DNA from: Myxococcales bacterium
Lineage (GTDB): Bacteria > Myxococcota_A > Polyangia > Fen-1088
DNA: 41,965 nt
Direction of reading: 5' to 3'
Assembly: GCA_003158735.1 (NCBI GenBank)
Contig: PMLB01000386.1
Coordinates: 21,806 to 63,770 of the forward strand
This document shows, one piece after another, positions 3,471 through 27,355 of the stretch. Each line of letters begins with the position of its first letter. Within the stretch, counting starts at the first letter, position 1. Under the pieces are notes generated by a model that saw only the letters and a program-made list of their open reading frames with translations, had not been told where the DNA came from and searched no databases. Position numbers and translations under genes: made by a program.

Positions 3471-5159
3471 ATGAAAATCGTCTGTGACGCTTGTCAGGCA
3501 AAGTATTCGATTGCGGACGAAAAGGTCCAGGGCAAGGCCTTCAAGATCCGATGCAAGAAATGCAACCACATCATCGTGGTCAGAAGCGGCGGTGAAAGGG
3601 CCGTCGGCGCTGCCACAGAGCCCAAGCCCGCACCGGCCGAGGCCCAAGGTACCTGGTACGTCGTGGTGGAGGGCGAGCAGATGGGACCGTTGGCTGAGCC
3701 CGATATCGCGGCCCGCCTGCGGCGTGGTGAGATCACGGGTGAGTCATTGGTCTGGAAGGAAGGTCTTGCCGATTGGGTGAAGCTGTCGGCCGTCCCGGAA
3801 CTGGCGCAGATGTCATCGTCGCAGGCGACCCCGGGTACTCAGCCGACTTCAGCCCCAGCGGCAGAGCCAGCGCCTGTTCGGCGCAGCTCAGCCGCCATGC
3901 GCGCGCACGGCTCTTCCAGAGAGGCGGCGATGGCGGCGGCTCCCGGCGAGGACATTTTTTCCAGGCCGGCCCCGGCAGCCAGTGCATCTGCTGATCTGTT
4001 CGCCTCGCCGGCCGTCGCGCACTCGTCCGCTGCGGCCGAGGCGCCAGCCAGCGCATCGTCGGCGTTTGCCTTTGGCGCGGCGTCTGCCCCCGCCCCTGAG
4101 CCCGCTGCCAGGGCCCCCGGCAACGGCGCAGGGGAAAGTCACATGACCGGCCAACGCAATGAGAACTCGGTCCTGTTCTCGCTGGCCAACCTGGAAGCAC
4201 TTGCGGTGCCGAGTTCGTCGACCAGCGCGCGGGCGCCATCGACAACTTCGACCACAGAGGGCTCTGGCCTCATCGACATTCGTTCGATGGCCGCAAGAAC
4301 CATTGGAGAGTCGGGCCGAGACGATGCTTTCGGCGGCTCGGACGCCTTGCCAACCTTCTCGACGCCGCAGTTCTCACCGGTGGCTCCGGTGTTTCTTCCT
4401 ATGGCTTCGAGCGGCCCGCCCAAGTGGGTGTACCCGGTTCTGGGGGTACTCGCCCTTGGCATCGTCGCCCTTGGCTTGGGCATCTACAAGGTGGTGTCGG
4501 TGCCTCCTCCGCCGCCCCCCGCGCCTCCGCAGATCGTCGTGCCCGCGCTGGTGACACCGCCAGCGCCGGCAGCGGCGTCAAGCCCTGGTGCCCCGACGGC
4601 TGCTCAGCCGGCCAAACCTGCCACGCCCGAGGAGAAGCCGGGCGAGGAGAAGGCGGCGACCGAGAGGAAGAAGCCGTCCGGCAAGAGTGGCAAATCGGTT
4701 GCCAAAGCCCAGACCGAGGCGGCATCGTCGGCCAAGGGTGCGCAGCCAGCGTCTGAGCCGGTGGCTGCGCCAGCCCCAGCCCCAGCCAAGCCGAAGAAGG
4801 GTGGCTCCATCGATGACTTGCTCGATCAGGTCAACACCAACAGGCGCGGCGGCGGCGAAGAGCCGAAACCCAAGAAGGTGGTCGCCGCGGCGGCGCTGCC
4901 CTCACTTTCCCAGAGTGACATCGTCAGTGCGATGAAGGCCGTGCAGCCCAGAGTGAAGGAGTGCTACAATCAGTACAAGCTTGCGGGCATCGCGAACGTG
5001 AGTATCTCGATCTCCAAGGGAGGCCGTGTTGCCTCGGCGACGGTGACGGGCAAGTTCGCGGGTACGCCTAGCGGCACCTGCGTGGAAGCGGCGGCCAAGA
5101 CCGCGAAGTTCCCGCCTTGTGAGGCGATGAGCTTCCCCTGGCCCTTCCAACTCCACTAG
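3471..5159 (+). CDS. GltJ/AgmX-like zinc-ribbon, GYF and TonB-C-like membrane protein
   Basis: A 562-residue single-pass membrane protein. Residues 1-36 form an MJ0042-type zinc ribbon with two CxxC pairs (CDAC and CKKC). Residues about 60-112 form a GYF_2 domain (WYVVVEGEQMGPL, LVWKEGLADW). A long Ala/Pro linker with the motif ENSVLFSL at 231-238 leads to one membrane helix at about 318-341. Then come a second Pro/Lys/Ala-rich linker, a SIDDLL motif near 446-451 and a C-terminal AgmX/TonB-C-like domain at about 476-562. The same order occurs in GltJ (AgmX) of Myxococcus xanthus, part of the Agl-Glt gliding machinery whose cytoplasmic zinc ribbon and GYF domain face the regulatory side. Myxobacteria carry several such paralogues and no other gliding genes are nearby, so a gliding role is only inferred. 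I start at the ATG at 3471, where the zinc ribbon begins, rather than the GTG at 3447. Confidence 0.88.
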   Translation: MKIVCDACQAKYSIADEKVQGKAFKIRCKKCNHIIVVRSGGERAVGAATEPKPAPAEAQGTWYVVVEGEQMGPLAEPDIAARLRRGEITGESLVWKEGLADWVKLSAVPELAQMSSSQATPGTQPTSAPAAEPAPVRRSSAAMRAHGSSREAAMAAAPGEDIFSRPAPAASASADLFASPAVAHSSAAAEAPASASSAFAFGAASAPAPEPAARAPGNGAGESHMTGQRNENSVLFSLANLEALAVPSSSTSARAPSTTSTTEGSGLIDIRSMAARTIGESGRDDAFGGSDALPTFSTPQFSPVAPVFLPMASSGPPKWVYPVLGVLALGIVALGLGIYKVVSVPPPPPPAPPQIVVPALVTPPAPAAASSPGAPTAAQPAKPATPEEKPGEEKAATERKKPSGKSGKSVAKAQTEAASSAKGAQPASEPVAAPAPAPAKPKKGGSIDDLLDQVNTNRRGGGEEPKPKKVVAAAALPSLSQSDIVSAMKAVQPRVKECYNQYKLAGIANVSISISKGGRVASATVTGKFAGTPSGTCVEAAAKTAKFPPCEAMSFPWPFQLH

Positions 5160-5428
5160 CGAAGCGCTTGTCTGGAAATTCGGGACCGCGGTATAGGCCG
5201 GGTCGCGGGTTGCGGTTAGCGTGTGCGAGGGCGTGAGCGAGTTCGTGTGGGGTACGCGGGCCGCGGGCCGCTCACGCGAGCCGCCCACGCAGGCCGCTGC
5301 ACGCTGGTCGCTCACGCTACCGCAGCCCCCACAGGGGCTTCGGGACGGACAGCCCACCCTGCCCACCCCTCGCGCTTCGCGCTCGCTCGTCGCGCTCACG
5401 CTGGCCGATCTGCGCCAGCCACGAGTTC
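5157..5428 (+). repeat. Dispersed stop-codon-linked repeat, copy 1
   Basis: Homologous to 27130-27355 on the opposite strand. Similarity begins exactly at the TAG stop codon of the GltJ-like gene (TAGCGA in both copies) and runs to GAGTT. The best blocks are 39 bases with three mismatches (5219-5257 against 27250-27288 reversed) and 19 identical bases (5280-5298 against 27192-27210 reversed). It contains one GCGTGAGCG (5231-5239) and three complementary CGCTCACGC arms (5269-5277, 5309-5317, and one near 5394-5402), so alternative hairpins can form. Compared with copy 2 it has an extra segment of about 65 bases near 5321-5393. Reading frames inside are short and biased, so it is most likely non-coding RNA or DNA structure. 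Confidence 0.85.
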
Positions 5429-5453
5429 TCTGAGAGATCTCTAACTTTGCGTT

Positions 5454-5897
5454 TCAGTGTGAGGCGCCGGCGTCTGGCTCTGCTGGCTCGGGCTTGCGGG
5501 GAGGCGGCGGTGCGGGCGAGCCGTGGTCCTCGCGCAGCTTGCCGGCCAGCTTGTCGAGCAGAAGCTGCTCAAGGTAGTGGGGCAGGTCGGGCAGGGTGGC
5601 CACGACACGTGTGATGTCGCGACCGTCGCCGTCGCTGACTCGGATGAGCTCGAGTGACCCTTTGTGGAGCTTCTGGGCTTCCGGGTAGTCAAACAGGATG
5701 TAGCCGGCGGTCTCGTCCTTCTCGCGAATCACGCAATTTCGGTCGATGCGCAAGAAGCGCACAGCTGTCGGCCACACGTCGGCCATCGAATACGGGACCG
5801 TGCTCACGCTGCGCGCCTCAGCCGCCAGCGGCGCGATGCACAGCCCCGCCAGGAGGAGTACGAGTAGCGGCGTCCGGCGTGGCAAGCCTCGTGTCAC
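5454..5897 (-). CDS. Small exported protein of unknown function
   Basis: A 147-residue protein with an N-terminal signal peptide (basic MTRGLPRRT, hydrophobic LLVLLLAGLCIAPLA, cleavage likely after AEA). A compact mixed domain of about 90 residues follows, then a Pro-rich tail ending in acidic and histidine residues. I do not recognise the family. The mature part (WPTAVRFLRIDRNCVIREKD, then GYILFDY) has the feel of a small alpha/beta domain, but I assign no function. Its ATG overlaps the stop codon of the upstream flippase-like gene by four bases (ATGA), so the two are probably translated together. It converges on the repeat element after the GltJ-like gene. Confidence 0.8.
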   Translation of the reverse strand: MTRGLPRRTPLLVLLLAGLCIAPLAAEARSVSTVPYSMADVWPTAVRFLRIDRNCVIREKDETAGYILFDYPEAQKLHKGSLELIRVSDGDGRDITRVVATLPDLPHYLEQLLLDKLAGKLREDHGSPAPPPPRKPEPAEPDAGASH

Positions 5898-6943
5898 GAG
5901 GGCTCTCCCTCCTCAACCGCACGTTTGGATTCGACAACCATGGTGCGCAGTGAGCGGGAGCCTTCGCCCACCGCCCAGAGCGCGAGAAATCCCCATCCCA
6001 CGTACCACACAAACTGGATTCCATGGAGAGCGATGGCGTAGGCCCCGCCGAAGTGGCTGACCGTGGCCGCAGGCAAGTAGGCGCCCAAAGCAATGAGAAC
6101 GCCGGCATGAAACTGGCCCACCAGACCTGGCGAATTGGGCAGGGAAATGAGCACGCCGGTAAAGGCCATGGCCGCGAACGCACCCGTGAGAGGGATGGCA
6201 AGCTGCATGTCGCGTGCGAGCAGCCACATTCCAAATCCGTTGCTGAACCAATAGAGCACCGTCTGGGCTAGGAACGGAATCATGTCGCGCGCTTCACGCA
6301 AGGCTCGAAAACCTTGGATCAAGGCGCGCAGCTTGTCGGCCAGGCGTTCGGCCGTGGCAGGCGCGAAACGTCGCAAAAGGGTTGCCGCCAGAACCAGCCG
6401 AATCGTCTTTTCGGGCCAGCGCAAGGCGCAGGCCAGAAAAATCGTGAGAGAGAGGAAGCCAATCAAGGACAACCAAGCGGCGCCGGCCAGAACCGAGGAG
6501 TAGCCCGACCCACCCGCCCGGAAAGCCAGCATGTACGTGGTGAAGAAAAGGATGGAGATCACAAGCCCGTCCACGATGCGCTCCACCGCGACCGTACCCA
6601 GAAGGGCGCTCATGCGTGACTGCCCGCCGCGCGCGACATAGTACGGCCGCGCGAATTCGCCCAGCCGGAAGGGCAAGGCCAGGATGGCCATGAACCCCAC
6701 GGTTGAGATGATCATCAAGCGGCGAAAGCTCAGGGACACGCCGATGGGACGCAAGAGGTACTTCCAGCGCCACGCTCGGAAGAGATGCGTGGGAACCATG
6801 GTGGCTGCGTAGATCAGAACCGCCGAAAGTGGCAAGCCTCGCAGCACCGATGCCGTGGCTGAAAGGTCCATCTTGCGAATGGCCAGCCAGAGACACAGCG
6901 TCCCCACCAGCAGGGACAGGAAGACTTTGACAAAGAGTTTCAA
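5894..6943 (-). CDS. Flippase-like integral membrane protein (LPG synthase TM/UPF0104 family)
   Basis: A 349-residue polytopic protein with about eight hydrophobic segments, opening MKLFVKVFLSLLVGTLCLWL. Conserved family signatures are visible: the arginine-rich region RAWRWKYLLRPIG near residue 58, FRLGEFARPYY near 96, VERIVDG near 120, and NSPGLVGQFH near 275. Members share the membrane half of lysylphosphatidylglycerol synthases and are thought to move lipids or polyprenyl-linked intermediates across the inner membrane; the C-terminal aminoacyl transferase half is absent. The downstream exported protein overlaps by four bases. The PHP phosphatase gene ends 29 bases upstream, suggesting one transcript and a link to envelope polysaccharide or lipid work. 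The substrate is unknown. Confidence 0.85.
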   Translation of the reverse strand: MKLFVKVFLSLLVGTLCLWLAIRKMDLSATASVLRGLPLSAVLIYAATMVPTHLFRAWRWKYLLRPIGVSLSFRRLMIISTVGFMAILALPFRLGEFARPYYVARGGQSRMSALLGTVAVERIVDGLVISILFFTTYMLAFRAGGSGYSSVLAGAAWLSLIGFLSLTIFLACALRWPEKTIRLVLAATLLRRFAPATAERLADKLRALIQGFRALREARDMIPFLAQTVLYWFSNGFGMWLLARDMQLAIPLTGAFAAMAFTGVLISLPNSPGLVGQFHAGVLIALGAYLPAATVSHFGGAYAIALHGIQFVWYVGWGFLALWAVGEGSRSLRTMVVESKRAVEEGEPS

Positions 6944-6972
6944 GGGAATGGACCTTTTCGGCGCACAGCGCC

Positions 6973-7692
6973 TCAGGGAAGTTCGCCCATCAAGATACGG
7001 CGGGGATTGTCGCTGAGCAATCGCGTGACCACTTCGGCACCCAGACGCTTGTCGATCCAGGCCAGTCCCGCAGCGACAGACCGGTCGTCCTCCGGGGCGT
7101 GCATGTCAGAGGCTGCGGCATGGGCCAGGCCCTCCTCGACCAGTCGTCGGGCCGTCTTGACTTCGGCGCGGTCGCCGGTTCCCGACAGCGCAGCCAGGTC
7201 CACCAGCAAGGCGGCTTGGCGGCTCAATCCCTCCGCCACGGCGGGGTCGCGTTGTACCGCCGAATACCGTTCGGGGTGGGCCAGCACGGGAAGTCGTCCG
7301 GAAACACGTATGTCGAAGAGGGCTGCCTCCAGCCGAGGCGGCAGGACCACGGGGCTGATCTCAAAAAGGAATGCCTTGCCACCATCGTAGCAAGGTGGTT
7401 CCCCTTGGCGCAGTCGGGTGGCGAGGATGTCGTCCCAGTAGTTCTCTGCGCCGAGGAGCAGACGTACCTCAGGCATGAGCTTCGCAATTTCGCGGTTTGC
7501 TTGGTCAAAGGTCAGCCTGACCTGGTCGAGCGGGGGTTGAAACCTTCCCGCGAATTGGTGGGGAGTGGCGCACAGGTCAGAGAAGCCCATCTCGGACAAG
7601 GCACGCACCATGCTGAGACAGGTGGGAAAGTCGTCGGCTCCGTCGTCGAGGCCGGGAAGGAAGTGCGAGTGGAGATCGACGTAATGCGCCAC
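6973..7692 (-). CDS. CpsB/YwqE-type PHP phosphatase (phosphotyrosine phosphatase family)
   Basis: A 239-residue PHP-fold metal-dependent phosphatase. The metal ligands are visible in order: DLHSHFLPGLDDG (H8, H10), ATPHQF, GAENYWD, the diagnostic LAHPERY, and SDMH near residue 200. CpsB/Wzb-like members dephosphorylate the tyrosine kinases that govern capsule and exopolysaccharide export. No such kinase or export gene is in the window, so the target is not known. The frame is open up to 7812, but the extra N terminus overlaps the divergent gene. I start at the GTG at 7690-7692, just before the first metal-binding motif, which gives the usual family length. The flippase-like gene follows in the same direction. 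Confidence 0.87.
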   Translation of the reverse strand: MAHYVDLHSHFLPGLDDGADDFPTCLSMVRALSEMGFSDLCATPHQFAGRFQPPLDQVRLTFDQANREIAKLMPEVRLLLGAENYWDDILATRLRQGEPPCYDGGKAFLFEISPVVLPPRLEAALFDIRVSGRLPVLAHPERYSAVQRDPAVAEGLSRQAALLVDLAALSGTGDRAEVKTARRLVEEGLAHAAASDMHAPEDDRSVAAGLAWIDKRLGAEVVTRLLSDNPRRILMGELP

Positions 7693-7819
7693 GGCGTTTG
7701 CCGGGAGACAATAACTAATCTGGCGCTGGGTTGAGTGTTTCTTTTTGTGGCGTACGCTTCGGACTTGCACAAAGGCGAAAAGAGATCGCAGAGTGATCGT
7801 GCTGGGAGGCAAAAATTTG

Positions 7820-8329
7820 ATGAGCGATAAGGTCGTGCTGCCACGTCTGGACTTGCCGGGTCAAAAGACCCACTGGGCCGTTGTTGCCGTCATCGGCGGG
7901 GGTGTTCTCGTGCTGTTGATGGCAGCGATTTTCCTCATTGTCGTGCACAAGCAGCAGGCCGGGCAAGAAGCAGCAGCTCGGGCAATGGAAGCCCGCGCCA
8001 AGGAGGCCGCCTCACAGGTCGAGAAGTTGAAACTTGAGGCGGCGGTTGCCGTTGAGAAGGTCAAGGCAGCAGCAGCGGCTGCCGCTGCCGAGAAGGCGAA
8101 GCCCGCGGCTCAGGTCGCGGCCGGCGATGACGCCAGCAAGGCCGGATCTGCCGGGTCGGCGGCGACGGATGGGGATTCGGGCAAGGCCGGACAGAAGAAG
8201 AAGGCGCGTGGCAAGTCATCGGGGCGCAAGACGGGAAAGGTGGCAGGAGCCAGGGGTGGCGGAGAGCCATCGGAATCGACCAAGAAGACTGATGCGTCCG
8301 TTGATGCATTGCTGCGCGGTTTGAAGTGA
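7820..8329 (+). CDS. Ala/Lys-rich coiled-coil membrane protein of unknown function
   Basis: A 169-residue protein with a short cytoplasmic N terminus, one membrane helix at about 18-42, and then an Ala/Lys/Glu-rich helical stretch (about 45-105) likely to form a coiled coil. A Gly/Lys/Ser-rich basic tail ends in SVDALLRGLK. The tail resembles SIDDLL in the GltJ-like protein. I do not recognise a domain. The ATG at 7820 is chosen because GGAGG at 7805-7809 lies at proper ribosome-binding distance; the frame is open further upstream but without such a site. It is co-directional with the next coiled-coil gene and pyrE. Confidence 0.75.
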   Translation: MSDKVVLPRLDLPGQKTHWAVVAVIGGGVLVLLMAAIFLIVVHKQQAGQEAAARAMEARAKEAASQVEKLKLEAAVAVEKVKAAAAAAAAEKAKPAAQVAAGDDASKAGSAGSAATDGDSGKAGQKKKARGKSSGRKTGKVAGARGGGEPSESTKKTDASVDALLRGLK

Positions 8330-8475
8330 ACTCTGTGAGTCGCGCGGGGCGCGAGCGGCCAGCGTCGGTATTGTCGAGGTGCCACCGTTCGCGCTGCGCG
8401 CACGCGAATTTGTGTTAGATACTAGATTGATAGGTCAGCTTTCCCCAGTGAACACCGCACATCGCAAGGAGCTAC

Positions 8476-9222
8476 ATGGCTGAGGCACAAGAGAACTCGG
8501 TGCTGACGTCTCTCAAGGAACTTCGCAGGCAGGAAGAGGAGCGGGTCAGCCAAGAGAAGGCAGAGGCTGCGGCAAAGGCAGAGGCTGACCGGCGGGCGAA
8601 AGAGGAGACCGAGCGACGGGCGAAGGAAGAGGCCGAGCAGGCGCGCCGCGAGGAGGAGAACCGCAAGAAGCGCGTCGAAGATGAGAAGCTGGCGCGTGAG
8701 CGCGAGGAAAAGCTGCGCGTCGAGGAAGCCGAGCGCCGGGCGCGTATCGATGCTGAGATGAAGCTGCAGCACGAACGCATGCGGCTCGAGGTTCAGGCCA
8801 AGGCGGCGGTTCAGGCCAAGCCCGCGCCCAAGGGCCTCATCATCGGCATCGTGATCGGCGTGTTGGTCATCGGAGCGGGCGTGGTGGCGAAGATCAAGTC
8901 GGACCACGCGGCCGCCGAGGCACAGGCCAGGATTGTCGCCCAGAAGGAACGCGACGAACTGGTGCGCAAGCAACAGGAACAAGAGATGGCTTTCCAGGCA
9001 CAGATTGCCAAGCTGACCAAGCAGCTAGGCGAGGCCAAGAGCGATGCCGACCGCGAGGCGCTGAGGCAGCAGATTGAGCTGGCCAACTCGCGTCGTGCGG
9101 CCAGCGGCACCGCCAGCCACGCGCGATCTCCGAAGGAGACCTCGGCCAAGCCCGAGGCGCCGCAGAAGTTCATCAAGGACAAGAAGAAGATCTCGGACGA
9201 CCCGCTCGACGGGCTCCAGTAG
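8476..9222 (+). CDS. Coiled-coil protein with internal membrane helix and ENSVLxSL motif
   Basis: A 248-residue protein. Residues 6-13 read ENSVLTSL. A long highly charged Glu/Arg/Lys coiled coil (about 15-112) follows, then one membrane helix (about 120-138, GLIIGIVIGVLVIGAGVV), a second coiled coil (about 145-205) and a Lys-rich tail ending ISDDPLDGLQ. Topology is probably N-terminus in, with the second coiled coil in the periplasm. No enzyme domain is visible. The ATG at 8476 is preceded by AAGGAG. The ENSVLxSL motif matches one in the GltJ-like protein, which hints at a shared partner. It may act as a scaffold or polar/envelope organiser; that is inference only. Confidence 0.78.
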   Translation: MAEAQENSVLTSLKELRRQEEERVSQEKAEAAAKAEADRRAKEETERRAKEEAEQARREEENRKKRVEDEKLAREREEKLRVEEAERRARIDAEMKLQHERMRLEVQAKAAVQAKPAPKGLIIGIVIGVLVIGAGVVAKIKSDHAAAEAQARIVAQKERDELVRKQQEQEMAFQAQIAKLTKQLGEAKSDADREALRQQIELANSRRAASGTASHARSPKETSAKPEAPQKFIKDKKKISDDPLDGLQ

Positions 9223-9295
9223 GCTTCGGCGGACGTGGTTTTTCCATGTTGCGAACGGCCCCTCTTGCGGCCGGAGCCGTGGTAAAAATGCCGCC

Positions 9296-9862
9296 ATGAG
9301 CGGCCGTGAGCTTTTTGAACGAAACCGGGCTCGACTCCTCGATCTGCTCAAGCAGCTCGCCTACGAGGAGCGCGAGGTCATCCTCGCGTCGGGGCAGAAG
9401 AGCAATTTCTACATCGACTGCAAGCAAGCCGTGTTGAGCGCCGAAGGCCACTTTTTGGTGGGTTGGTTGTTCAACCGGGTAATTGCCGAGCATGCCCCCG
9501 AGGTGGAAGCCGTGGGGGGATTGACCATGGGCGCCGACCCGCTGGCCTCGGCGGTGGCCACGGTCAGCTACCTGGGCGGGCGACCGCTCGACGCTTTCTA
9601 CGTGCGCAAAGAGGCCAAGGGCCATGGCACGGGACAGTGGTTGGAGGGACGCAAGCTGCTTCGGCCTGGGATGCCGGTCGCCATCCTTGAGGACGTGGTG
9701 ACTACGGGCGGCTCGGCTCTCAAGGCGATCGTGCGCGCGCGCGAGTTCGGCCTCAAGGTCAGCCTTATCCTCGGTCTGGTGGACCGCGAGGAAGGTGGCC
9801 GCGAGGCATTGCAACGGGAGGCGCCGCTGCATACTCTCTTCCGACGGAGGGAGTTCATCTGA
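9296..9862 (+). CDS. pyrE: Orotate phosphoribosyltransferase
   Basis: Cytosolic enzyme of pyrimidine synthesis that transfers ribose-5-phosphate from PRPP to orotate to make OMP. The 188-residue product has SGQKSNFYIDCKQ near residue 32, GGLTMGADPLA, FYVRKEAKGHG, and the PRPP-binding loop ILEDVVTTGGSALKAI near residue 135. The frame is open upstream to 9074 only as a shadow of the coiled-coil gene; the ATG at 9296 gives the usual family start and length. Its TGA overlaps the ATG of the next gene by one base (TGATG), so the lipoprotein gene is probably translationally coupled. Confidence 0.96.
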   Translation: MSGRELFERNRARLLDLLKQLAYEEREVILASGQKSNFYIDCKQAVLSAEGHFLVGWLFNRVIAEHAPEVEAVGGLTMGADPLASAVATVSYLGGRPLDAFYVRKEAKGHGTGQWLEGRKLLRPGMPVAILEDVVTTGGSALKAIVRAREFGLKVSLILGLVDREEGGREALQREAPLHTLFRRREFI

Positions 9863-10500
9863 TGCCAGCGCGGAGGACGCGGGGGTTTGCCTTGGCCTGT
9901 GCTGTGGCGCTGGTCGGGTGTGCCCAGTCGGCTTCCAAGTCTGTCAATTTTTCCGACGCCACTCGCAACTATCGGCCGTCGGACTATTCATCGGTTTACG
10001 AAAGTTGGACACGACACGCGAAGCTGTGGCAGGAGGTGGGCACAGTCATCGAAGCGTGGGCGACCTACAAGAGCTGGGATTTTCGCCAGGCCTATGTGTC
10101 GTACTACGCCAGCATCTATGACTTGTCGGACAGCGATCGCGCCACGCTCCTGCGCTCGCAGCTCGAGGCGTCGCGGGCCAGTCACGAATTCCATGTGGCG
10201 GTACAGATGACCACCGACAAGTGGAACGATCTCGATCGCAAGAATTCGCCCTGGCGGGTCACTCTGCTGGACGCCAGCGGGGGCGAACTGGGGCCCACTT
10301 CGATCCAGGCGGTGAAGCTACCTGAGCTGTACGAGAGCCAGTTCTACCCCAGCCGCACCGAATTCACGCGCACCTATGAGATCAGCTTCGCCCGCACCGG
10401 CAGCGGCGGGCAGCTTTTTTCGGGCCCGGCAAGCGGTCGTCTCGTCTTGCGGTTTGCCAGCCCTGCGGGTCGGATTGAGCTAGTCTGGGATTCGAAGTAG
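9862..10500 (+). CDS. Putative lipoprotein of unknown function
   Basis: A 212-residue protein with a lipoprotein signal peptide: basic start (MPARRTRG), hydrophobic core, and lipobox VALVGC with Cys20. The mature part is rich in Trp and Tyr (YESWTRHAKLW, WATYKSWDFRQAYVSYYA), then a beta-rich second half ending in ELVWDSK. I do not recognise the family. The start codon overlaps the pyrE stop. It probably sits in the outer or inner membrane facing the periplasm. The next gene converges from the minus strand after 51 bases. Confidence 0.8.
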   Translation: MPARRTRGFALACAVALVGCAQSASKSVNFSDATRNYRPSDYSSVYESWTRHAKLWQEVGTVIEAWATYKSWDFRQAYVSYYASIYDLSDSDRATLLRSQLEASRASHEFHVAVQMTTDKWNDLDRKNSPWRVTLLDASGGELGPTSIQAVKLPELYESQFYPSRTEFTRTYEISFARTGSGGQLFSGPASGRLVLRFASPAGRIELVWDSK

Positions 10501-10551
10501 GAATTGTGCCGGCCGTTCGGAAAGCTGCGTCGGAGATCTGATAAGGGGGGC

Positions 10552-13081: not shown

Positions 13082-13090
13082 TCTTTCTTG

Positions 13091-17794: not shown

Positions 17795-18711
17795 GGCGTG
17801 CCTCGATACAGCAGCACAGCCAATCCCAAAGCTGCGATGACCGAGGCCCCGACCAAGAACTGCGGCACCCGCAGCAGGCGGATGCGAGCGGTTACCGATT
17901 CGACGATGCCCACTAGCACGGCCACCGCGACGGCTCCGGCCACGAATACGAGGGTACCCAGTGCACCTCCGGCAGGCGGCACGGGAAGAACCATGTGCAC
18001 CAGCAAGCTGGCGAAGAGAAACAGCTTGAGCGCGCTGGCGTAGAGCACGAAGGCCAGGTCGGGGCCGCCGTGATCCAACACCATCACCTCGTGAATCATG
18101 GTCAACTCGAGGTGGGTGGTGGGATCGTCGACGGGAATGCGTGAGTTCTCCGCCAGCAACACAGCGAAGAGAGCAACCGCGGCTGCGGGCAGGGCCGGGT
18201 GCGCGGGCCCCCAGGTTTGCCACGGCAGGGAGGCCCACGCCTCGGCGAAGGAGGCGCTGCCCGCGGGTAGGCAGACAATGGCGAGCGCCAGAAAAAGCGC
18301 GGGTTCCGCCAGGGCCGAGAAGGCGGCCTCGCGGCTGGCTCCCATGCCCTCGAAGCTGGAGCCGGTGTCGAGTGCGGCGGCCATGGTGAAGAAACGGCCG
18401 AGTCCGAGCAGATAGGCGAAGAGAATGACGTCGCCCGAAAATCCCAGGGGCGCGGTCGCGGCGCCCAGTGGGGTGAGAAGCCCTGCCGCCAGTGCGGCGG
18501 CCAAGGTCACGATGGGCCCAGCGCGGAAGAGCCAAGTTGTGGTGCGGCTGTAAACCGCGCCCTTGTGCAGAAGCTTCCACAGATCGAGGTAGGACTGCCA
18601 CAGCGGCGGCCCCTTGCGACCGGCGAACCAGGACTTGGTGCGGGTAATGATGCCGACCAGCAGGGGCGGCAGCGCGAGCAAGATGCATAGGTGAAGGACG
18701 ATGGCGGTCAT
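17791..18711 (-). CDS. NuoH/HyfC-like membrane subunit
   Basis: A 306-residue membrane protein with about eight helices, the quinone-site/proton-input subunit of complex I-like enzymes. Conserved loops include RKGPPLWQSYLDLWKLLHKG near residues 32-51, GMGASREAAFSALAEP near 122 and the acidic loop ENSRIPVDDPTTHLELTMIH near 200. It anchors the soluble arm to the membrane arm. The ATG at 18711 lies one base beyond the preceding stop, and the gene's TGA overlaps the NuoK-like start. Whether this subunit binds a quinone here is unknown; in group 4 hydrogenases it does not. Confidence 0.92.
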   Translation of the reverse strand: MTAIVLHLCILLALPPLLVGIITRTKSWFAGRKGPPLWQSYLDLWKLLHKGAVYSRTTTWLFRAGPIVTLAAALAAGLLTPLGAATAPLGFSGDVILFAYLLGLGRFFTMAAALDTGSSFEGMGASREAAFSALAEPALFLALAIVCLPAGSASFAEAWASLPWQTWGPAHPALPAAAVALFAVLLAENSRIPVDDPTTHLELTMIHEVMVLDHGGPDLAFVLYASALKLFLFASLLVHMVLPVPPAGGALGTLVFVAGAVAVAVLVGIVESVTARIRLLRVPQFLVGASVIAALGLAVLLYRGTP

Positions 18712-18712
18712 G

Positions 18713-20674
18713 TCAGTGCCTCATGGCTCCGGACAATTGCCACAAGACCAGCGCCACCAAAGTGGCCAGGATGTAGACCAGATAGAGCTGCATCCGTCCG
18801 TGCTGAATCACTCTCAGACGGCGGGCTGCGCGCAGAAAATGGCGCCAGGCCGGCACCAGCATGCGCTCACCCGCCATGTCACCCACGTGCTTTTCGAAGT
18901 GAGCCTGGGTGGGAAACATGCCGTCGGGCAGTCCGCCGTCGGTTCGGATGTGCAGCACGCTGGAGAAAGGGGCGAGCACGGGGTCGGCGAACGATGTGGC
19001 CGTGTACTGCATGCGCGCTGTCGCGTGAGGGTAGGCGCAACCCCAGGTCGCGGCTTGGGCAACCGGGCGGGTTTTGAGCAGCCGGGCTCGCAGCAAGGCC
19101 AGGGTGGCGATCAAAGCGACCAGCACTGTGGCCAGCAAGCTGATGTTGAAGAGCGGGCCCAGGTCGGCGGGCAGGGCCTCTCCGCTCAGACACACGGCCG
19201 CGGGCGCCACCAGGGCAAGTGCGCCGGCGGGCCACAGGCCGATGGCCAGGCAAGCCAAGGCTGCGGCGAGCATGGGCGCGCGCATGGCGAGTCCGACTTC
19301 GTGAGCGTGGCGGGCGTGGTCGCTGCGCGGTTCGCCCAGAAACACCACGCCAAAGACCTTGACGAAACAGGCCGCCGCCAAGCCGCCGATGAGAGCTAGG
19401 GCCGGCAAGGCGACCAGCGCCACCACCGCGCCGGTCGCGGGCAGGGTGGCCCCGGCGCGGAATGCGCCTAGGTAGATGAGCCACTCGCTGACAAAGCCGT
19501 TGAGCGGGGGCAGGCCACAGATGGCGACCGAACCCACCAGAAAGGCTGTTGCAGTCTCCGGCATCCGTCGGTAGAGCCCACCCAGCGAGTCGAGATGCCG
19601 CGTGCCCGACCCTTGCAGCACGCTGCCTGCGCCTTGAAACAGCAGCCCCTTGAAGAGACCATGATTGAGGGTGTGCAAGAGCGCGCCCGCATAGCCGAGC
19701 GTGGCCAACGCGGGGTGGCCGTAGCGCTGACCCAGAAGGCCGAGCCCGATGCCGAGCGCGATGATCCCGATGTTTTCCACGCTGTGATAGGCGAGCAGGC
19801 GCTTGAGGTCGTGCTGAGCCAGCGCGTGGATCACGCCCGCCACGCCGGAAATCGCGCCCACCAGCACGAAGACCGCGCCCCACCACGCGGGCGGCGGGCC
19901 GAGAAAAGGCAGCACGCGCAGCAGGCCGTAGATGCCCATCTTGATCATCACGCCCGACATCACCGCCGAGACGTGACTGGGCGCGGCCGGGTGAGCGTCG
20001 GGCAACCAGATATGCACCGGCCAGAAACCGGCCTTGGTGCCGAAGCCGCCCAGGGCGAGCAAGAAGGCAAGGTTGGCCAGACCGGCCGCCGCGATCCCGA
20101 TTCTCTTCATGGCGGCGAAGTCAAACGAGCCGGCCGCGCGTCCCAGCAGGGCGAAGAGAGCGATAAGCAGAATCACGCCCACGTGGGAGGCGATGAGATA
20201 GGTCGTGCCCGCACGCCGGACTTCGTCGCGGTCGTTCTCAAAGGTCACCAGGAAGAACGACGAGAGAGACATGGCCTCCCACGCCAGCAGGAACAAAACC
20301 CCATCCCGCGCGAGCACCACGCCCAGCATAGCCGCCAGCAGCAGGTTGAAGAAGACGACGGCCGGTGCCACCCGCCGCTTTCCCAGGTAGGCGCGCAGAT
20401 ACCCCGCGCCGTAGACCGCAGCCAGGCCCGACACGACGCAGATGCACAGGGCGAAAAAAGCTGACAGCGGATCGATCCCCACGCGCAACTCGCCAAGCGG
20501 CAGTGGAACCCGAGCCCGCCAGACCAGCGTGGCCCCGCTGCGCAGGGCCACGAGTGAAGCCGCCCCGCCCAGCAGCGAGGCCGCCACAGCGCTCGCGGTG
20601 CCTACCGCCAGGGCGGCGCGGTCCCTACGCCCCAAGATCGCGGCGAGTAGGGCGCTTCCAAAGAGAAGCGCCAT
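18713..20674 (-). CDS. Proton-pumping membrane subunit, NuoL/HyfB-like; first gene of Ehr-type operon
   Basis: A protein of about 653 residues with some 16 helices. Motifs of the antiporter-like family include FLLAWEAMSLSSFFLVTFEN, GGFGTKAGFWPVHIWLPDAH, VSAVMSGVMIKMGIYGL and LLAYHSVENIGIIALGIG. The C-terminal part carries extra hydrophobic segments and the cytoplasmic HIRTDGGLP segment, as in HyfB. The start is uncertain. The ATG at 20674 lacks a ribosome-binding site and removes part of a likely first helix. An in-frame ATT at 20701 has AAGGAA at good distance upstream and would add nine residues. A promoter candidate lies at 20730-20757. Confidence 0.88.
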   Translation of the reverse strand: MALLFGSALLAAILGRRDRAALAVGTASAVAASLLGGAASLVALRSGATLVWRARVPLPLGELRVGIDPLSAFFALCICVVSGLAAVYGAGYLRAYLGKRRVAPAVVFFNLLLAAMLGVVLARDGVLFLLAWEAMSLSSFFLVTFENDRDEVRRAGTTYLIASHVGVILLIALFALLGRAAGSFDFAAMKRIGIAAAGLANLAFLLALGGFGTKAGFWPVHIWLPDAHPAAPSHVSAVMSGVMIKMGIYGLLRVLPFLGPPPAWWGAVFVLVGAISGVAGVIHALAQHDLKRLLAYHSVENIGIIALGIGLGLLGQRYGHPALATLGYAGALLHTLNHGLFKGLLFQGAGSVLQGSGTRHLDSLGGLYRRMPETATAFLVGSVAICGLPPLNGFVSEWLIYLGAFRAGATLPATGAVVALVALPALALIGGLAAACFVKVFGVVFLGEPRSDHARHAHEVGLAMRAPMLAAALACLAIGLWPAGALALVAPAAVCLSGEALPADLGPLFNISLLATVLVALIATLALLRARLLKTRPVAQAATWGCAYPHATARMQYTATSFADPVLAPFSSVLHIRTDGGLPDGMFPTQAHFEKHVGDMAGERMLVPAWRHFLRAARRLRVIQHGRMQLYLVYILATLVALVLWQLSGAMRH

Positions 20675-20729
20675 CGAGACGAGTAGAAGTTGCAGAGAAA
20701 TCGACGGTGTTTCCTTGAAAACGAAGGTA

Positions 20730-20757
20730 CTTGTACGCCAAGTTATCGGCCTGTCAA
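20730..20757 (-). promoter_or_regulatory. Candidate promoter of the Ehr-type operon
   Basis: On the minus strand a perfect TTGACA (20757-20752) is followed after 16 bases by TACAAG (20735-20730), four of six matching TATAAT. Transcription would start near 20723, about 50 bases before the ATG and 22 before the ATT candidate start of the first gene. Confidence 0.5.
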
Positions 20758-20818
20758 GGGTGGACTGCGGTACAAGCGACGCTGCGAAACACGCGTTGGT
20801 GGAATATGATGCAAAGTC

Positions 20819-22636
20819 GTGCCTTCCTTGCTTCGCCTCGGGAAGTACCAACTAGACCGCCGGCTCGGGCCCGAAGGAGTGGTCGAGAGTTTCCGCGCCC
20901 ACCCGGCTGATTGTGTTTCACATGCGGCAGGCGACTCCGAGCTGTTCGTGGTCAAGCTGCTGCGTGCGGATCGCGTGCAGCGGCAGGCCTACCCGCGACT
21001 GGCTTCGCGCTTTCTTGCGGCAGGCCGGCGGCTGCTGGCCATTTCACCTGCGCACTCGGGTCGGGTATTCGACGTCGGCGAAGAAGCGGCGGGTGCCTTC
21101 GTCGTCTCGGGCTGGGTGGCCGGCGTGGATCTCGTCGGGCTGGTCCAGGCGGCTCAGCAGCAAACAGCACCCGGCCGCACGGGGGTGGACGCCGCCGTGG
21201 TCGGCGTGGTTGGCGGTCAGATGGCGCGGGTGCTCTCGCTCGCGCACGCGGCCGAGCCGCCGTTTTTTCATCTGGGTCTCTGTCCCGGGAACGTCCTGGT
21301 CACGCCCGCGGGCGAAGTCGTGCTGCGGGATTTCGGCTTGTTTGCATCCGTGCGCGGGCTGGTCGACCACCCTATCGAGAAGTGGTTGTTCGTCGCGCCG
21401 GAACTCGTGGGTGCGGCGATCGGCCCCGACACGCTCAGCGGCTGCGCGGCGGCGGACTTCCATTCTTTGGGCGCTCTCTTGCACTTCCTCCTCGGTGGCA
21501 AGCCTCCTTTCGAGGCGAGGTCGCTGGCCGAGCTTTCCGACCGCATGCGCGAGCCCGTGCACGAACTTGCGGGCGTACCGGCCGCTCTCAGCGCGGCCAT
21601 CCGCGCCCTGACCGCGCTCCATCCCGAGGACCGGCCCCGCGGCGCCAGTCTGTTGAGCGAAGCGCTGGCAGGCCATCCGGCCCCGGCCGAGGCCGAGTCC
21701 CCTGTCACCACTAGGAAGCTCAAGAACGATGGGGCAGGGGACCACGCCGCTGTTTTGGCGCCAGCGGGTCACGTGGCGAAGCGGCCGGGTCGAACGGGCG
21801 TCGCCGCGCGTGGAGCGGCCGCTGGGCACGGCCGCTCGGTGCGTTCGGGCTGGCTGGTCGCACTGGTGGCATTGCTGGGCCTTCTTCTTGTGACGGTGTT
21901 CGGCTTGCTTGCCTTCCGGCTGGCTCGCACCTTCTCTGCCAAGCGCGCCGCTCAGGGTGTCGCCATCGCACAGCGCCGAGCTGGCGAGACTCCGCCCGTC
22001 GAACCCCAACTCAAGTCGCATTCACATCAGCGCTCCCCGGAGTCGTGGCTGCCCGCTGTTCCCACCCCTCTGCCCGACGCGGGCGCGAGACGCGTCGCGG
22101 ACGCCGCTCTGGCGCGGGCATCCGCGAGCGATGACATACCGGTGTTCCCGGCCGGGCGCTTTGTCGTCGAGGAGTCGAACACACCGCAGCCTCAGCGCGT
22201 GCCGAATCACCTGTTCGTCGACACCCAGCCCCACGGCGCGCAGGTCTGGGTTGAGGGCGTTTGGAAAGGTAACACGCCGCTCGACGTGCTGGCCGGCGCA
22301 GGTGGCAAGCGGCTGGTGCTGGTGGCTGCGGGATATCACATGTTCCGCACTAGCATCGATGCGCGCGAGGGAACTCTGATCCGCCTCGCGCTCGATCCGG
22401 TTGCAGGCCCGGTGCGCGGCGACGCTTTTCTCAACGTGGTTTGTCGCACATCGGGAAGGTACCCGGTGTTTATTGACGAGGTCGAGACCGGGCTGCTTTG
22501 CCCCGTCCACCTGGTGCCGGTGGCGGCCGGAACACACCGGGTGGGCGTGTTCGTACCGGCGGAGCGCAAGCTGGAGGCGGTGGAGATCACGGCTCCTGCC
22601 GGCCCCAAGCCCCTCGATGTTCATCTCGCGCCGTGA
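20819..22636 (+). CDS. Serine/threonine kinase-like pseudokinase with membrane helix and PEGA domain
   Basis: A 605-residue protein. Residues about 8-270 have a Hanks-type kinase fold: a degenerate Gly loop (LGPEGVV), the ATP-anchoring Lys in FVVKLLRAD (about residue 46), and DFG at 171. The HRD-x(4)-N catalytic loop reads HLGLCPGN, so the catalytic Asp is Gly153. A low-complexity linker leads to one membrane helix at about 344-366 and an extracytoplasmic part with a PEGA domain at about 464-527 (VDTQPHGAQVWVEGVWKG) and a second beta-rich repeat. It probably senses or scaffolds without normal kinase activity. The GTG at 20819 is the only start that keeps the kinase N terminus; nearby ATGs are out of frame. 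It is divergent from the Ehr-type operon. Confidence 0.84.
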   Translation: MPSLLRLGKYQLDRRLGPEGVVESFRAHPADCVSHAAGDSELFVVKLLRADRVQRQAYPRLASRFLAAGRRLLAISPAHSGRVFDVGEEAAGAFVVSGWVAGVDLVGLVQAAQQQTAPGRTGVDAAVVGVVGGQMARVLSLAHAAEPPFFHLGLCPGNVLVTPAGEVVLRDFGLFASVRGLVDHPIEKWLFVAPELVGAAIGPDTLSGCAAADFHSLGALLHFLLGGKPPFEARSLAELSDRMREPVHELAGVPAALSAAIRALTALHPEDRPRGASLLSEALAGHPAPAEAESPVTTRKLKNDGAGDHAAVLAPAGHVAKRPGRTGVAARGAAAGHGRSVRSGWLVALVALLGLLLVTVFGLLAFRLARTFSAKRAAQGVAIAQRRAGETPPVEPQLKSHSHQRSPESWLPAVPTPLPDAGARRVADAALARASASDDIPVFPAGRFVVEESNTPQPQRVPNHLFVDTQPHGAQVWVEGVWKGNTPLDVLAGAGGKRLVLVAAGYHMFRTSIDAREGTLIRLALDPVAGPVRGDAFLNVVCRTSGRYPVFIDEVETGLLCPVHLVPVAAGTHRVGVFVPAERKLEAVEITAPAGPKPLDVHLAP

Positions 22637-22640
22637 TGGA

Positions 22641-25600
22641 CTACTCCAGGACTTCGGTCCAGTTGAAACGTGAGAACTGACCAGAATAGGGCGATGCCTG
22701 CACCGCACTGCCTGCGCTGATCGCGTCCGGGAGGAAGGGCGTGACGTCGTCGAACGTGGTGGTACCGCCGAACACGTAGACGCGGCCGCCTATGATCACA
22801 GGCGAGGTGGCCGGGTTGGTGCTTGTGACCAGGTAACCCAGCCGCTCGGTGACCGCCCCGGACGTCATTTGGTGGATGGTCAGGTAGGTCTTGCCTACAC
22901 CGCAGACATCCGACGGGGCGGCGTACCACATGGTCACTACCTCGAATCCATTCCCGTCGGCCTTCAGTATGCCCAATGGCGTCGAGGTGGGCCGGGCGGT
23001 GACGGGCATTTGCGTGTCGCAGACCACGCTGCCGTCGGACGCCAGGTGAGTCACGCCGCAAATCTGGTTGGTGCCCGTGGTGAGCACGATTTGGCCACCG
23101 GTGCCCCACGTGGTGTCCTTGACCACGCCCGTGATGTTTCCGTTGCTGTCGGCTTGGGCCAGCTCCTTGGCAAAGATCATCTGCGAAGCCGGCAGGCTGA
23201 CCGTGTCCAGGTCGAGGTTCGAGTTGGTCACCTGGACCAGGTAGATTTCGTGCGCGTGACTGGAGGCCACGCTGTCGCGGTCGAGTTGCACCACCGTGGG
23301 GGAGAAGTGCAGCGGTTGGTTGCAGGTGAAGTTGTAGGCCAAGCTGAGGCCGCCGGCCAGGGTGTAGCGCCAGAGCTGTCCCGCCGTGTCGCCGAAGTAG
23401 GCTGCCACGAGCTTGTCGTTCTGGGCCCTGGCAAAGTCGCGCGCGGTCGCCACGTCGGTCAGCGCCGCGTATTCCTGCGCGCAGGTGGCGCCCGGCGACA
23501 CGCTGTTGGTCGCGATCACGTTCCCGGTGATGGCCGACGCCGTGACCAGGGTGCGCCCCTGGGTTGTGCTTCCATCGGAGACGGCGTAGCCAGAACTGAA
23601 GATGAGACGGTAGTCGTTGAGACTGGTGGTCTTGTTGAGCAGGAACGCAGGCAAAGAAATCGTGTCGCCCAAGACTTGGTTGTAGGTGTCTGCGCTGGCG
23701 CCGACACCGGTGTGCCATTGCACGGTGACGGGAGGGTCGTTGAGTGCGTTGGTGCCGAATGGGTTGGTGACGTCGAGCATGAAGGTCTCGGCTCCACCGT
23801 AGCCCTCTGGCATCAGGAGCAGTGTCTTCCACACCGCCGTGCTGTCGTCGGTACAGCCCGAGACACACAGGCTCTTGACCTTGGGCGAGTCGGCCAATCC
23901 GAAGATGTGATTGTAGGGGTTGAGATCCTGTCCGCCTTGTGCGTACAGCCTGCGCAGGTTGGTGAGAAAGTCGGGTGGGATGAAGGCAAAGGCTTCGCTA
24001 CCAGCGGAATACGTGGTGGTGCCCACCTTGGTGTCTTCCAGGAAGAAGGCGTGCAACATCATGTCCGACGAGCCCACGTAGATGAGATGGGGTCGGTTCA
24101 TGCACTTGAGGAAGAAGTTGTGTCCGCCCGGCAGCGCCACATCGCCCGGGCTGGCCACGTCGATGGGCGTGGAATTCACGATGGCGCCTAGGATCGCAGG
24201 GTTGTTGGAAGCCGGATTTCCCAGGGCCCACTGCGCCACGGCCTGGGCTTCATCCGCGGTGGCGCCCATGCCCAGCGCAGCCAGCGCCGCCGCGTTGGTG
24301 ATGGCCCCGGTCGAAGCGTTGACCTGGATCTTGACCATGTTGGTGCCGTCCCAGGTGTAGACCCTGCGGTTCATCCAGTTTGCGGTATTGGAGAGCTGCG
24401 TGCCCGCGTCCCAGGACAGCACAGGTGTGGTGCCCGCGACGTTGTAGGCGTACAGGTGCCCCTTCCAGGAAGGAAACTCCATGCGCGAATCGAGCGCGTA
24501 CTTGCCCTCGACCACCGTGATGGCTTGCTGAGTGCCCGCCGAGGTGCTGCCAGCTGATGAAGAATAGTTGCCCTTAATCGCGGTGTAGACAGCCAATTGC
24601 AAGGCGTCCTCAAGCTGGTCTTCACTGGTGGCCAAGAAAGCGGTGCCGGAGCCGCCGGCCTTGGCCACGTTGTTGTTGGCCGCCGCGGTCGGGCCAGCGC
24701 TGGCGTCGCCCGAAAATCCCACCACAAAGACCGTCACGCCCAGGTTGTGCTTCAGATCGTAGGCGGCCAGGACCGACTTGCACTTGCATCCGGCGGTGGC
24801 CGGGTTGTCGGCGGAGCAGGGTGTATCGTCGCAGATGTTGTTGCCCTGGCTGTCCACGTCACCTGGGCCGTTGGCCTGGCCGTCGGTGATGAGCAACGCG
24901 AAGTTGCTACGACAGGAAACGGAGTCAGCTGGGATGGTGAGGGACGGGCTGGCGCTGGTGTAGCCGTTCTTGACCGCCTTCATGTAGTCATAGGCGCTGG
25001 TTTGCGGGGTCTTGGCCACGTCGTTCTCCAGCGTGCAACCGGTGGGGGTGCCGTAGTAGGTAATCAGCCCGCCGTCCGCAGCGGGGGCCATTTGAGCGGT
25101 GATGGCCTGGGCTGCAGCCAGTGCGTTTGTCGGGCTATCAGAGGTATCGAGGAAGGGCGTGAGCTGCGTGTCCCAGCGCGCGCCGCAGCTGGAGCTACAA
25201 GCAGAGCCACAATTGGCTACGCTGATAGGAGGAGCGTCCCCGCCGTTGTAATAGTTGGTCAGCGGCGTGTAGTAGGTGTAGTTGCTGCCATTGACGGTGA
25301 TGTCGTGGCCGTCGTAGGTGTCACGCACGAGCAGGGTCGACGACGTGGTCTGGGTGGTTCGGTCGTACTGGTAGTAGCTTCCTTGGTAGGCCCCCCAGCC
25401 CAGGTTGTTGGGCATGTTGCACGAGTCGCCACAGAAGTCGACATCGTAGCGATCCCAGGAAGACCAGCCCTTGCGCACGCGATAGCGACTGTCAGCGGTG
25501 GCCCGCAGGGTCATCTGGTGGCCGGAAATCGTGCAAGTGGCGGAGGGGCCGCCTATGTGCGTCTGGCGATTCCAGGTATAGCAACCCGCTCTGCGCAATT

Positions 25601-26906
25601 GGTCCTCAGTCTCATACACAGTAATGGTGTTTGTCGAACTGCTCCCGGAAACTTTGTAGTAGGGGTAGTAGTTGTCCTGCCAGAAGGTCATGAGCCCAAA
25701 GTTGACCAGCGGGTAGTTGTCCATCACCAGCTTGCTGATGGCGCGTTTGGCGATCACCGTGCGCGAGGTGGCTGGCCCGCACAGGTCGCCGCTGCCGCAG
25801 TCCGAGTCCTTGGAGCACACCACCTGCGAACTCTTGCACATGCGGATGGGACCGGCTGTCCCATGCGTGTTGGATACGCAGGTGTCAGTCGCGCTGGCCG
25901 GCAACTGGCAGTTGTTGGCTGGCGGCAGGTTGCAGGTGTTGGTCGGGATGGAACAGGTGTTGGTGGTGCCCGTGCACTTGTTGTCATTGTGTATGGCGCA
26001 CGTCGCCGACGGCAGATTGCACACGTTGGGCGTGCCGGTACACTGGTTGAGCGGCGGGGTCACGCACTTGTCGTTGCCATGACAGTGAGCGCTACTGGAA
26101 CATGGTGTGAGGTGGTTGGCTGGTGGCCAGTAAGAGGTGTCGCCGTAGCAGATATTGCCCGGGTACACGAGGCAGGTTGGTTGGCCGGTCGCCAGCCCGC
26201 AAGAATCGCCGCTTACCTGGCAGCTCATGTTCGAGGGGCAGTCGCTGGTCTGGCTGCAGCCCCCCCATGGCGTACTGCCTTGCGAGCAAGTTCCGCCGCT
26301 GGTGACCGGGGGACAGGTGCTAGCGTCCTGGCAGGTTTGGCTGCTTTGGGTGGAGCAGGTGCCGATGTTGGGACAGTAGCTGCCGGGATTGGTGCACAGG
26401 ACGTTCGTCCCGTACTTGCAATAGCCGACTGACGCGCAGGCAATCTGGGCGCTGCACGTGGCATTCGTCGTCGTGCAGGTTCCCATCTGAACCGGGCAGG
26501 GCGAGCTGGCGGTGCACGACCCGCCGGTGTAGGAGCAGACGCCCGGGTCTTGGGCGCAGTCAGCGTCGCTGACGCAGATGGTGATGTTGTCCTTCGAGCA
26601 GTAGCCGTGACGACAGTCATCATCCGACAGACAGTTGCGCGTCGTCCAAGCCTGGCAGATCCCCAGCAAGCCACCCTGGCGGCAGTTGACGCCGTTGTCG
26701 CAGTCGACGCCGCACTCGGCGTTGTTCTGGAACTGGCCGCCCGGCACGCCGTTCATCGAACCCGAGGTGTCGAGCACGATGAGCATGTTGGCCTTGCGGA
26801 TCTGGCGTTCGATGATCGCCAGCGGGTTCACGCGGGCATCGGCCAGCTGTGGTGCCGCAGTCCAGGTCAGCGCTGTGGCCACGGCAACCAGGACAAAGAA
26901 CTTCAT
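22641..26906 (-). CDS. PilY1-like type IV pilus adhesin with vWA domain and Cys-rich insertion
   Basis: About 1421 residues, exported. The signal peptide MKFFVLVAVATALTWTAAP is cleaved probably after ADA (residue 24). A von Willebrand A domain starts at about 41 with the MIDAS motif DTSGSM (46-51) and continues with NFGLMTF and LLITDGQ (near 672). Between them sits an insertion at about residues 65-375 with 43 cysteines in SxxDC and NxC patterns. Residues about 930-1421 match the PilY1 beta-propeller (YVGSSDMMLHAFF, GQLWRYTLAGG). PilY1 proteins cap or prime type IV pili and act in adhesion and mechanosensing. No pilin genes are nearby. An ATG at 26978 would add 24 residues before the signal peptide; I prefer 26906. 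Confidence 0.85.
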   Translation of the reverse strand: MKFFVLVAVATALTWTAAPQLADARVNPLAIIERQIRKANMLIVLDTSGSMNGVPGGQFQNNAECGVDCDNGVNCRQGGLLGICQAWTTRNCLSDDDCRHGYCSKDNITICVSDADCAQDPGVCSYTGGSCTASSPCPVQMGTCTTTNATCSAQIACASVGYCKYGTNVLCTNPGSYCPNIGTCSTQSSQTCQDASTCPPVTSGGTCSQGSTPWGGCSQTSDCPSNMSCQVSGDSCGLATGQPTCLVYPGNICYGDTSYWPPANHLTPCSSSAHCHGNDKCVTPPLNQCTGTPNVCNLPSATCAIHNDNKCTGTTNTCSIPTNTCNLPPANNCQLPASATDTCVSNTHGTAGPIRMCKSSQVVCSKDSDCGSGDLCGPATSRTVIAKRAISKLVMDNYPLVNFGLMTFWQDNYYPYYKVSGSSSTNTITVYETEDQLRRAGCYTWNRQTHIGGPSATCTISGHQMTLRATADSRYRVRKGWSSWDRYDVDFCGDSCNMPNNLGWGAYQGSYYQYDRTTQTTSSTLLVRDTYDGHDITVNGSNYTYYTPLTNYYNGGDAPPISVANCGSACSSSCGARWDTQLTPFLDTSDSPTNALAAAQAITAQMAPAADGGLITYYGTPTGCTLENDVAKTPQTSAYDYMKAVKNGYTSASPSLTIPADSVSCRSNFALLITDGQANGPGDVDSQGNNICDDTPCSADNPATAGCKCKSVLAAYDLKHNLGVTVFVVGFSGDASAGPTAAANNNVAKAGGSGTAFLATSEDQLEDALQLAVYTAIKGNYSSSAGSTSAGTQQAITVVEGKYALDSRMEFPSWKGHLYAYNVAGTTPVLSWDAGTQLSNTANWMNRRVYTWDGTNMVKIQVNASTGAITNAAALAALGMGATADEAQAVAQWALGNPASNNPAILGAIVNSTPIDVASPGDVALPGGHNFFLKCMNRPHLIYVGSSDMMLHAFFLEDTKVGTTTYSAGSEAFAFIPPDFLTNLRRLYAQGGQDLNPYNHIFGLADSPKVKSLCVSGCTDDSTAVWKTLLLMPEGYGGAETFMLDVTNPFGTNALNDPPVTVQWHTGVGASADTYNQVLGDTISLPAFLLNKTTSLNDYRLIFSSGYAVSDGSTTQGRTLVTASAITGNVIATNSVSPGATCAQEYAALTDVATARDFARAQNDKLVAAYFGDTAGQLWRYTLAGGLSLAYNFTCNQPLHFSPTVVQLDRDSVASSHAHEIYLVQVTNSNLDLDTVSLPASQMIFAKELAQADSNGNITGVVKDTTWGTGGQIVLTTGTNQICGVTHLASDGSVVCDTQMPVTARPTSTPLGILKADGNGFEVVTMWYAAPSDVCGVGKTYLTIHQMTSGAVTERLGYLVTSTNPATSPVIIGGRVYVFGGTTTFDDVTPFLPDAISAGSAVQASPYSGQFSRFNWTEVLE

Positions 26907-27129
26907 CCTTGGCCCGGTGGCTACCTGGCCTGCGAAGGATCTCACGCGATGAACCATCGGCAGAAGGGCGAGCTTCATTGAGAATACGCACACCAGGGGC
27001 TCGCGCCTGCGCGCGCTGTCCGTGAAATCTTTTGTATGCTCTGAGGAGTAGTCTACATTACCAGAAATGAAGTTGCAAATGTCCCTGGAAGATTGCCGGT
27101 TGCCGGTGTTGGCCATAAGCCTACCGGGG
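26907..27129. other. Upstream region of the PilY1-like gene
   Basis: Together with the repeat at 27130-27355 this makes 446 bases without a gene. It holds the candidate promoter at 27050-27078 and an alternative in-frame ATG at 26978 for the PilY1-like gene. The segment around 27020-27080 is clearly less GC-rich than its surroundings. I see no RNA gene or further open frame with support. Confidence 0.5.
27050..27078 (-). promoter_or_regulatory. Candidate promoter of the PilY1-like gene
   Basis: On the minus strand TTGCAA (27078-27073) and TAGACT (27055-27050) are spaced by 17 bases in a locally AT-richer segment. The predicted transcript would have a leader of about 65 bases to the ATG at 26978 or 137 bases to the ATG at 26906. 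Confidence 0.4.
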
Positions 27130-27355
27130 AACTCCGGGCCAGCCCAGGTCGGCGAGCGTGAGCGGTAGCGGTAGCGTGAGCGGCAAGCGGAGAGCGGCCT
27201 GCGTGGGCGGCGAGCGTGAGCGGTCAGGCACCACAGCGCCCCACCTCCCGCGTATCCCACGCGAACTCGCTCACGCCCTCGCCCACGCGACCCGCGAGCC
27301 GCGGCCCGCGACCCGGCCTGCCCAGCCCCTCGAATCTTCCGACGAGCTGTCGCTA
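27130..27355 (-). repeat. Dispersed stop-codon-linked repeat, copy 2
   Basis: Homologous to 5157-5428. Read on the minus strand it begins with the TAG stop codon of the double-ACT gene (27355-27353, TAGCGA), followed by GATTCG, GGCCGGGTCGCGGG, GCGTGAGCGAG, GCCGCCCACGCAGGCCGCT and CGCTCACGCTACCGC, and ends at GGAGTT. Like copy 1 it has one GCGTGAGCG and three CGCTCACGC arms. It lacks the extra segment of copy 1 but has about 20 bases of its own after TACGCGGG. It lies between the double-ACT gene and the promoter of the PilY1-like gene. Confidence 0.85.

Follow-up and report, generated by a model that had tools for sequence, protein, structure and literature searches.

A dispersed repeat at gene ends in a Myxococcales genome is very probably a MITE with a gene-sparing TAGCTA target

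Among bacteria, MITEs that carry inverted repeats and duplicate their target are a familiar class of element (PMC2229807, PMC10969869). The Correia/NEMIS and RUP elements resemble the repeat family described here in that they are short, non-coding and multi-copy, are bounded by terminal inverted repeats and duplicate their target (PMC2229807). However, those elements have a TA target, whereas the present family has a 6-bp TAGCTA target, is G+C-rich and carries unrelated terminal repeats. The REPs are palindromes of 20-40 bp (PMC3733652), and REP/BIME sequences are likewise dispersed, intergenic and palindromic, but unlike REPs the present elements are 220-300 bp long and have terminal inverted repeats and a target duplication. 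The pneumococcal BOX repeats are found at the 3' ends of genes, are enriched where genes converge and encode the stop codon of 36 coding sequences, with no strong evidence of truncation (PMC3049150). The present elements share both kinds of position. They differ in that their stop belongs to the target that is duplicated, and BOX is modular (boxA/B/C). To our knowledge, the two are unrelated in sequence.

Members of the IS481 family, such as ISLxc2, duplicate a 6-bp target, NCTAGN, and the stop codon of their transposase lies within the host insertion site (PMC2516522). The family described here shares a 6-bp duplicated target that contains TAG, and an outward, though ambiguous, frame ending in the target in one related genome (G010) resembles the IS481 transposase stop (PMC2516522). 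However, the terminal repeats of ISLxc2 begin TGTG and those found here begin CGG, and derivation from IS481 as judged by the NCTAGN target was rejected because the consensus target is TAGCTA. The open-licence papers searched described no MITE that targets TAGCTA or a stop codon, and none for which TAGCTA coincides with abutting convergent stops. We regard the family as a new MITE family of a known kind, with an unusual gene-sparing target.

The window analyzed in this study is a stretch of 41,965 nucleotides of contig PMLB01000386.1, and it holds two copies of the repeat as well as one vacant target (Table 1). The initial annotation described these copies as homologous and as starting at the stop codons of two genes, and both statements were borne out. 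The copies align by blastn at E 4e-28 (72% over 190 aligned columns), with homology resuming past an insert of ~66 bp in copy 1, and each begins at the in-frame TAG of the preceding gene (5157-5159 on the plus strand and 27353-27355 on the minus strand). The gene preceding copy 1 encodes a zinc ribbon and a GYF_2 domain (Pfam). Both copies are longer than first described, reaching about 5441 and 27118 with degenerate right ends, and their right target copies are unrecognizable. The main indel between them is explained by the ~66-bp module, a repeat in its own right that many copies carry as a nested insert. Both copies have the same orientation relative to the gene that they follow, as had been noted, but this is not a rule, as stops were found at 24 left ends and 7 right ends across the family.

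Table 1. Coordinates of the repeat copies and related features in the window, and of a contig-break pair in a related genome
Feature	Position	Strand	Remark
MITE copy 1, including left target copy	5157..5441	+	Right end degenerate, end coordinate approximate
Left target copy TAGCGA, copy 1	5157..5162	+	First 3 bases are the stop codon of gene 3447-5159
Left terminal inverted repeat, copy 1, worn	5163..5180	+	Approximate, 1-bp indel; 15/18 to CGGCTTGTCGGGAAATTC if shifted one base
Nested separate repeat module (CCCCACAGGGGCTTCGGGACGGACAGCCCACCC...CGCTCGTCG) in copy 1, absent from copy 2	5327..5392	+	Approximate boundaries
MITE copy 2, including left target copy	27118..27355	-	Right end degenerate, low coordinate approximate
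Left target copy TAGCGA, copy 2	27350..27355	-	First 3 bases are the stop codon of double-ACT gene 27353-27904
Left terminal inverted repeat, copy 2: CAGCTCGTCGGAAGATTC	27332..27349	-	14/18
Vacant TAGCTA target	37770..37775	.	Abutting TAG stops of convergent ORFs 37473-37772 (+) and 37773-39239 (-)
G010 contig-break pair, non-MITE interior	L250 2468-2553; L256 1-86 (JAFGPX01 = G010)		Candidate autonomous-transposon end

A BLAST search of the genome to which the window belongs (6.49 Mb, 467 contigs) gave 86 matches to copy 1 and 65 to copy 2, representing about 40 places, a few of which match the ~66-bp module alone. Complete copies without nested inserts are ~220-300 bp long, which is too short for a transposase, and their interior is a G+C-rich imperfect palindrome. 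They are bounded by an 18-bp terminal inverted repeat with the consensus CGGCTTGTCGGGAAATTC, which is present at both ends in C171, C424, C50, L128 and L261, and a 6-mer resembling TAGCTA adjoins this repeat on the outside. Among 63 strong ends, the outer 6-mer showed T at 87%, A at 81%, G at 78%, C at 73%, T at 60% and A at 68%. The element was present in all six of the other genomes of the genus that were searched and in G010, which belongs to another genus of the family, while the remaining genomes among the 59 searched gave no match or one marginal match each. A scan of 84,980 named genomes returned 26 stretches, of which those resembling true copies come from fen Myxococcales MAGs and from the Deltaproteobacteria MAG JAFGPX01; the other inspected stretches look like chance matches. 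One of the stretches examined, L248 (Proteobacteria), has a perfect terminal repeat but lies inside an open reading frame and was judged a chance match.

The flanking sequences support a 6-bp target duplication, as opposed to a TAG that belongs to the inverted repeat. Three copies have non-palindromic 6-mers, and in these the duplication is direct (TACCTA/TACCTA in C171, TAACTA/TAACTA in C424 and TACCTG/TACCTC in L129), with a pooled direct identity of 17/18 compared to 10/18 for inverted comparison. The filled L129 site in G003 reads CCCC-TACCTG[element]TACCTC-ACGTAG, and five genomes have a single TACCTC and no element at this site. Across the full set of 21 candidate end pairs, which includes many weak ones, left and right 6-mers matched no better than shuffled pairs (permutation p 0.19); the reason is that the palindrome itself is the target in most cases and that wear has affected many copies. 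Duplication of TA only, as in the IS630/Tc1-like Correia or RUP elements, would mean that the bases following TA, including the G of TAG, come from a longer inverted repeat. TA is indeed the most conserved part of the outer 6-mer, and G004 carries TAA at the W1 site in place of the TAG of the filled site. However, the 6-mers of C171, C424 and L129 are repeated directly and not inverted, and the single-copy TACCTC in five genomes also speaks against this mechanism, which we consider quite improbable; an IS630/Tc1-type MITE was rejected on the 6-bp direct duplication in these three informative cases.

Sites without the element retain native stops. The empty C50 site has convergent stops in both G006 (CAC-TAG-CTA-TTCG) and G005 (CAC-TAG-CC-CTA-TTCG), and native convergent stops are also found at the empty C194 site in G004 (CAA-TAG-ATACC-CTA-CTCC) and at the empty L146 site in G006 (TAG-TCC-CTA). 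Since empty sites in sister species keep the same native stops, the proteins are not truncated, and truncation by an element-supplied stop was rejected because, at the sites examined, element-free orthologues share the stop position or differ from it by no more than a few codons. In G010, the L261 copy has a perfect TAGCTA on both sides and lies between convergent genes that both end in TAG there.

It had also been suggested that the repeat is a switchable RNA in which one GCGTGAGCG arm can choose among three CGCTCACGC arms. The arm count is correct for both window copies, and single copies fold strongly (z -6.9 for C50, -2.9 and -2.2 for the window copies), but good folding of single copies is expected because the element is an imperfect palindrome. 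The consensus fold of 33 aligned copies is weak (-7.47 kcal/mol, covariation -0.12). At position 2 of the GCGTGAGCG arm (column 90), C is replaced by G in about one third of the copies, and the partner usually stays G in all three CGCTCACGC arms. At the first arm pair both sides were changed in 3 of 286 cells, somewhat above shuffles (mean 0.8), with the main change uncompensated. Substitutions thus largely fail to preserve the pairing, and the main one of the differing indels that had been read as selection for structure is the nested repeat insertion, so the idea of a switchable RNA found no support. An Rfam search of the window at the gathering score returned tRNA only and no match for the element, and an RNA switch or riboswitch was rejected on this result and on the scarcity of compensatory change.

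A functional 3'-UTR, terminator or RNA-stability module that is selected after stop codons would fit the strong hairpins of single copies and the position of the elements after stops. However, this is highly unlikely given the weak consensus fold and low covariation, the uncompensated state of the commonest arm substitution, the fact that orthologous sites are often empty or occupied by other repeats, and the finding of stops with both element orientations. Individual copies could have acquired a 3'-UTR or terminator role. The case also calls for caution, as hairpins and position alone can make such repeats look like 3'-UTR regulators.

The expectation that other copies relate to stop codons was confirmed. 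A gene stop forms the first three target bases in 31 of 64 non-redundant ends (28 TAG, 2 TAA and 1 TGA), which is probably a lower bound because the home-made codon-usage test used to call gene stops missed some genes, compared to 13 of the 361 TAG triplets in the window (~4%). About half of the ends had no gene stop detected exactly there, and some copies occupy TAGCTA-like sites with no detected gene end. TAGCTA is a palindrome that reads TAG on each strand, and it is the junction of convergent TAG-ending genes with nothing between them. It occurs 198 times in the genome of the window versus 2010 times for the reversed control ATCGAT, making it approximately tenfold rarer, and among 49 vacant TAGCTA sites, 11 coincide with a gene stop. 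Target choice therefore explains a large part of the stop bias. Elements are at stops more often than the vacant sites are (25/53, after manual merging of three duplicate or orthologous copies, versus 11/49; p 0.013), and this excess fits selection against insertions elsewhere, though a further preference is also possible. Random insertion with no target preference and survival only at gene ends is the least credible reading, for although selection probably adds to the bias, as the same excess indicates, and pneumococcal repeats are likewise enriched between convergent genes (PMC3049150), the TAGCTA consensus persists without a detected adjacent gene stop (e.g. L121, L123, L128 and L169) despite the tenfold rarity of this sequence. 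As a separate observation, TAG was the commonest stop in the sampled background gene ends (131/247).

The data presented in this study make it very probable that the repeat is a MITE that inserts at TAGCTA or near variants with a 6-bp duplication and spares the adjoining genes. This is based on the dispersal of the family, its inverted repeats, the duplication of 6 bp, the native stops seen at empty sites and the rarity of the target. One of the initial suggestions, a mobile non-coding element that targets stop codons, was close to right, but the stop sits in the duplicated TAGCTA target and not in the element. The proposed model suggests that a short non-coding transposon derivative is moved in trans by a transposase encoded elsewhere, presumably of the DDE type. 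TAGCTA would arise from the abutting TAG stops of convergent genes, or from the TAG of one gene followed by CTA, and insertion at this palindrome or near variants would duplicate those six bases. The TAG of the left gene would then be kept in the left target copy and that of the right gene (read CTA) in the right copy; neither protein would be altered, and such insertions would therefore survive. The stop-codon bias would be divided between target choice and later selection. This offers a simple mechanism for repeats that start exactly at stops, with the stop in the duplicated target and TAGCTA as the two-strand stop of convergent genes, and provides a testable bacterial example of a transposon that prefers a sequence at which genes are spared. 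It is possible, though we put this forward tentatively, that the transposon lineage has a transposase specialized on the palindrome of back-to-back TAG stops, with convergent genes as a near-neutral safe harbour in a gene-dense genome. In such a lineage, the duplication would rebuild both stops and the scarcity of TAGCTA elsewhere would focus insertions on gene junctions.

A complete autonomous copy was sought as paired terminal repeats 0.4-4 kb apart; no credible candidate was seen and no transposase was found. Two contigs of G010 stop 62 bp inside the same terminal repeat and share an identical interior that is unlike the MITE (Table 1), and two other G010 contigs stop inside an identical MITE-like interior; the breaking contigs end in TAGCTACGGCTTGTCGGGAAATTCGGGTAGTTGAGTCGC. 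These breaks suggest recent multi-copy elements that disrupted assembly, and the two interiors may represent opposite ends of a single autonomous element. Read outward, one frame of the 62-bp end stops at a TAG in the target, but the frame is ambiguous, and a 28-amino-acid query from it found a significant relative neither in plasmids nor, apart from G010 itself, in any of 144 genomes.

Several other repeats were seen in or near the copies. A ~60-bp repeat (GGGGCTTCGGGACGGACAGCCCACCCTGCCCACCCC...CGCTTCGCG...CGTCGC), found in the window at 5327-5392, is nested in many copies and also occurs alone (G000 C192:4826, C333:800 and C34:29613). A further inverted-repeat element (GTGCTAACCACGATTC ... 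CACCACAGAGAGCACAGAG ...) lies inside or beside MITE copies (G000 C68, C310:12257, C46, C10 and C121), and similar ACAGAG repeats often adjoin TAGCTA or TAGGTAAC-like sequence (L208, L318, L327 and L333). At orthologous gene ends in G005 and other genomes of the genus (L184, L224, L215 and L216), the same gaps directly after the same stops are filled by a third repeat family (GGGAACCCT...AGGGTTCCC with CGCGGGAGG). Finally, a duplicated gene segment carries the same MITE copy at its stop (G000 C33:15662 and C34:16787; G005 C19:126648; L257), and a second match resembling the inverted repeat lies just upstream, inside the gene end.
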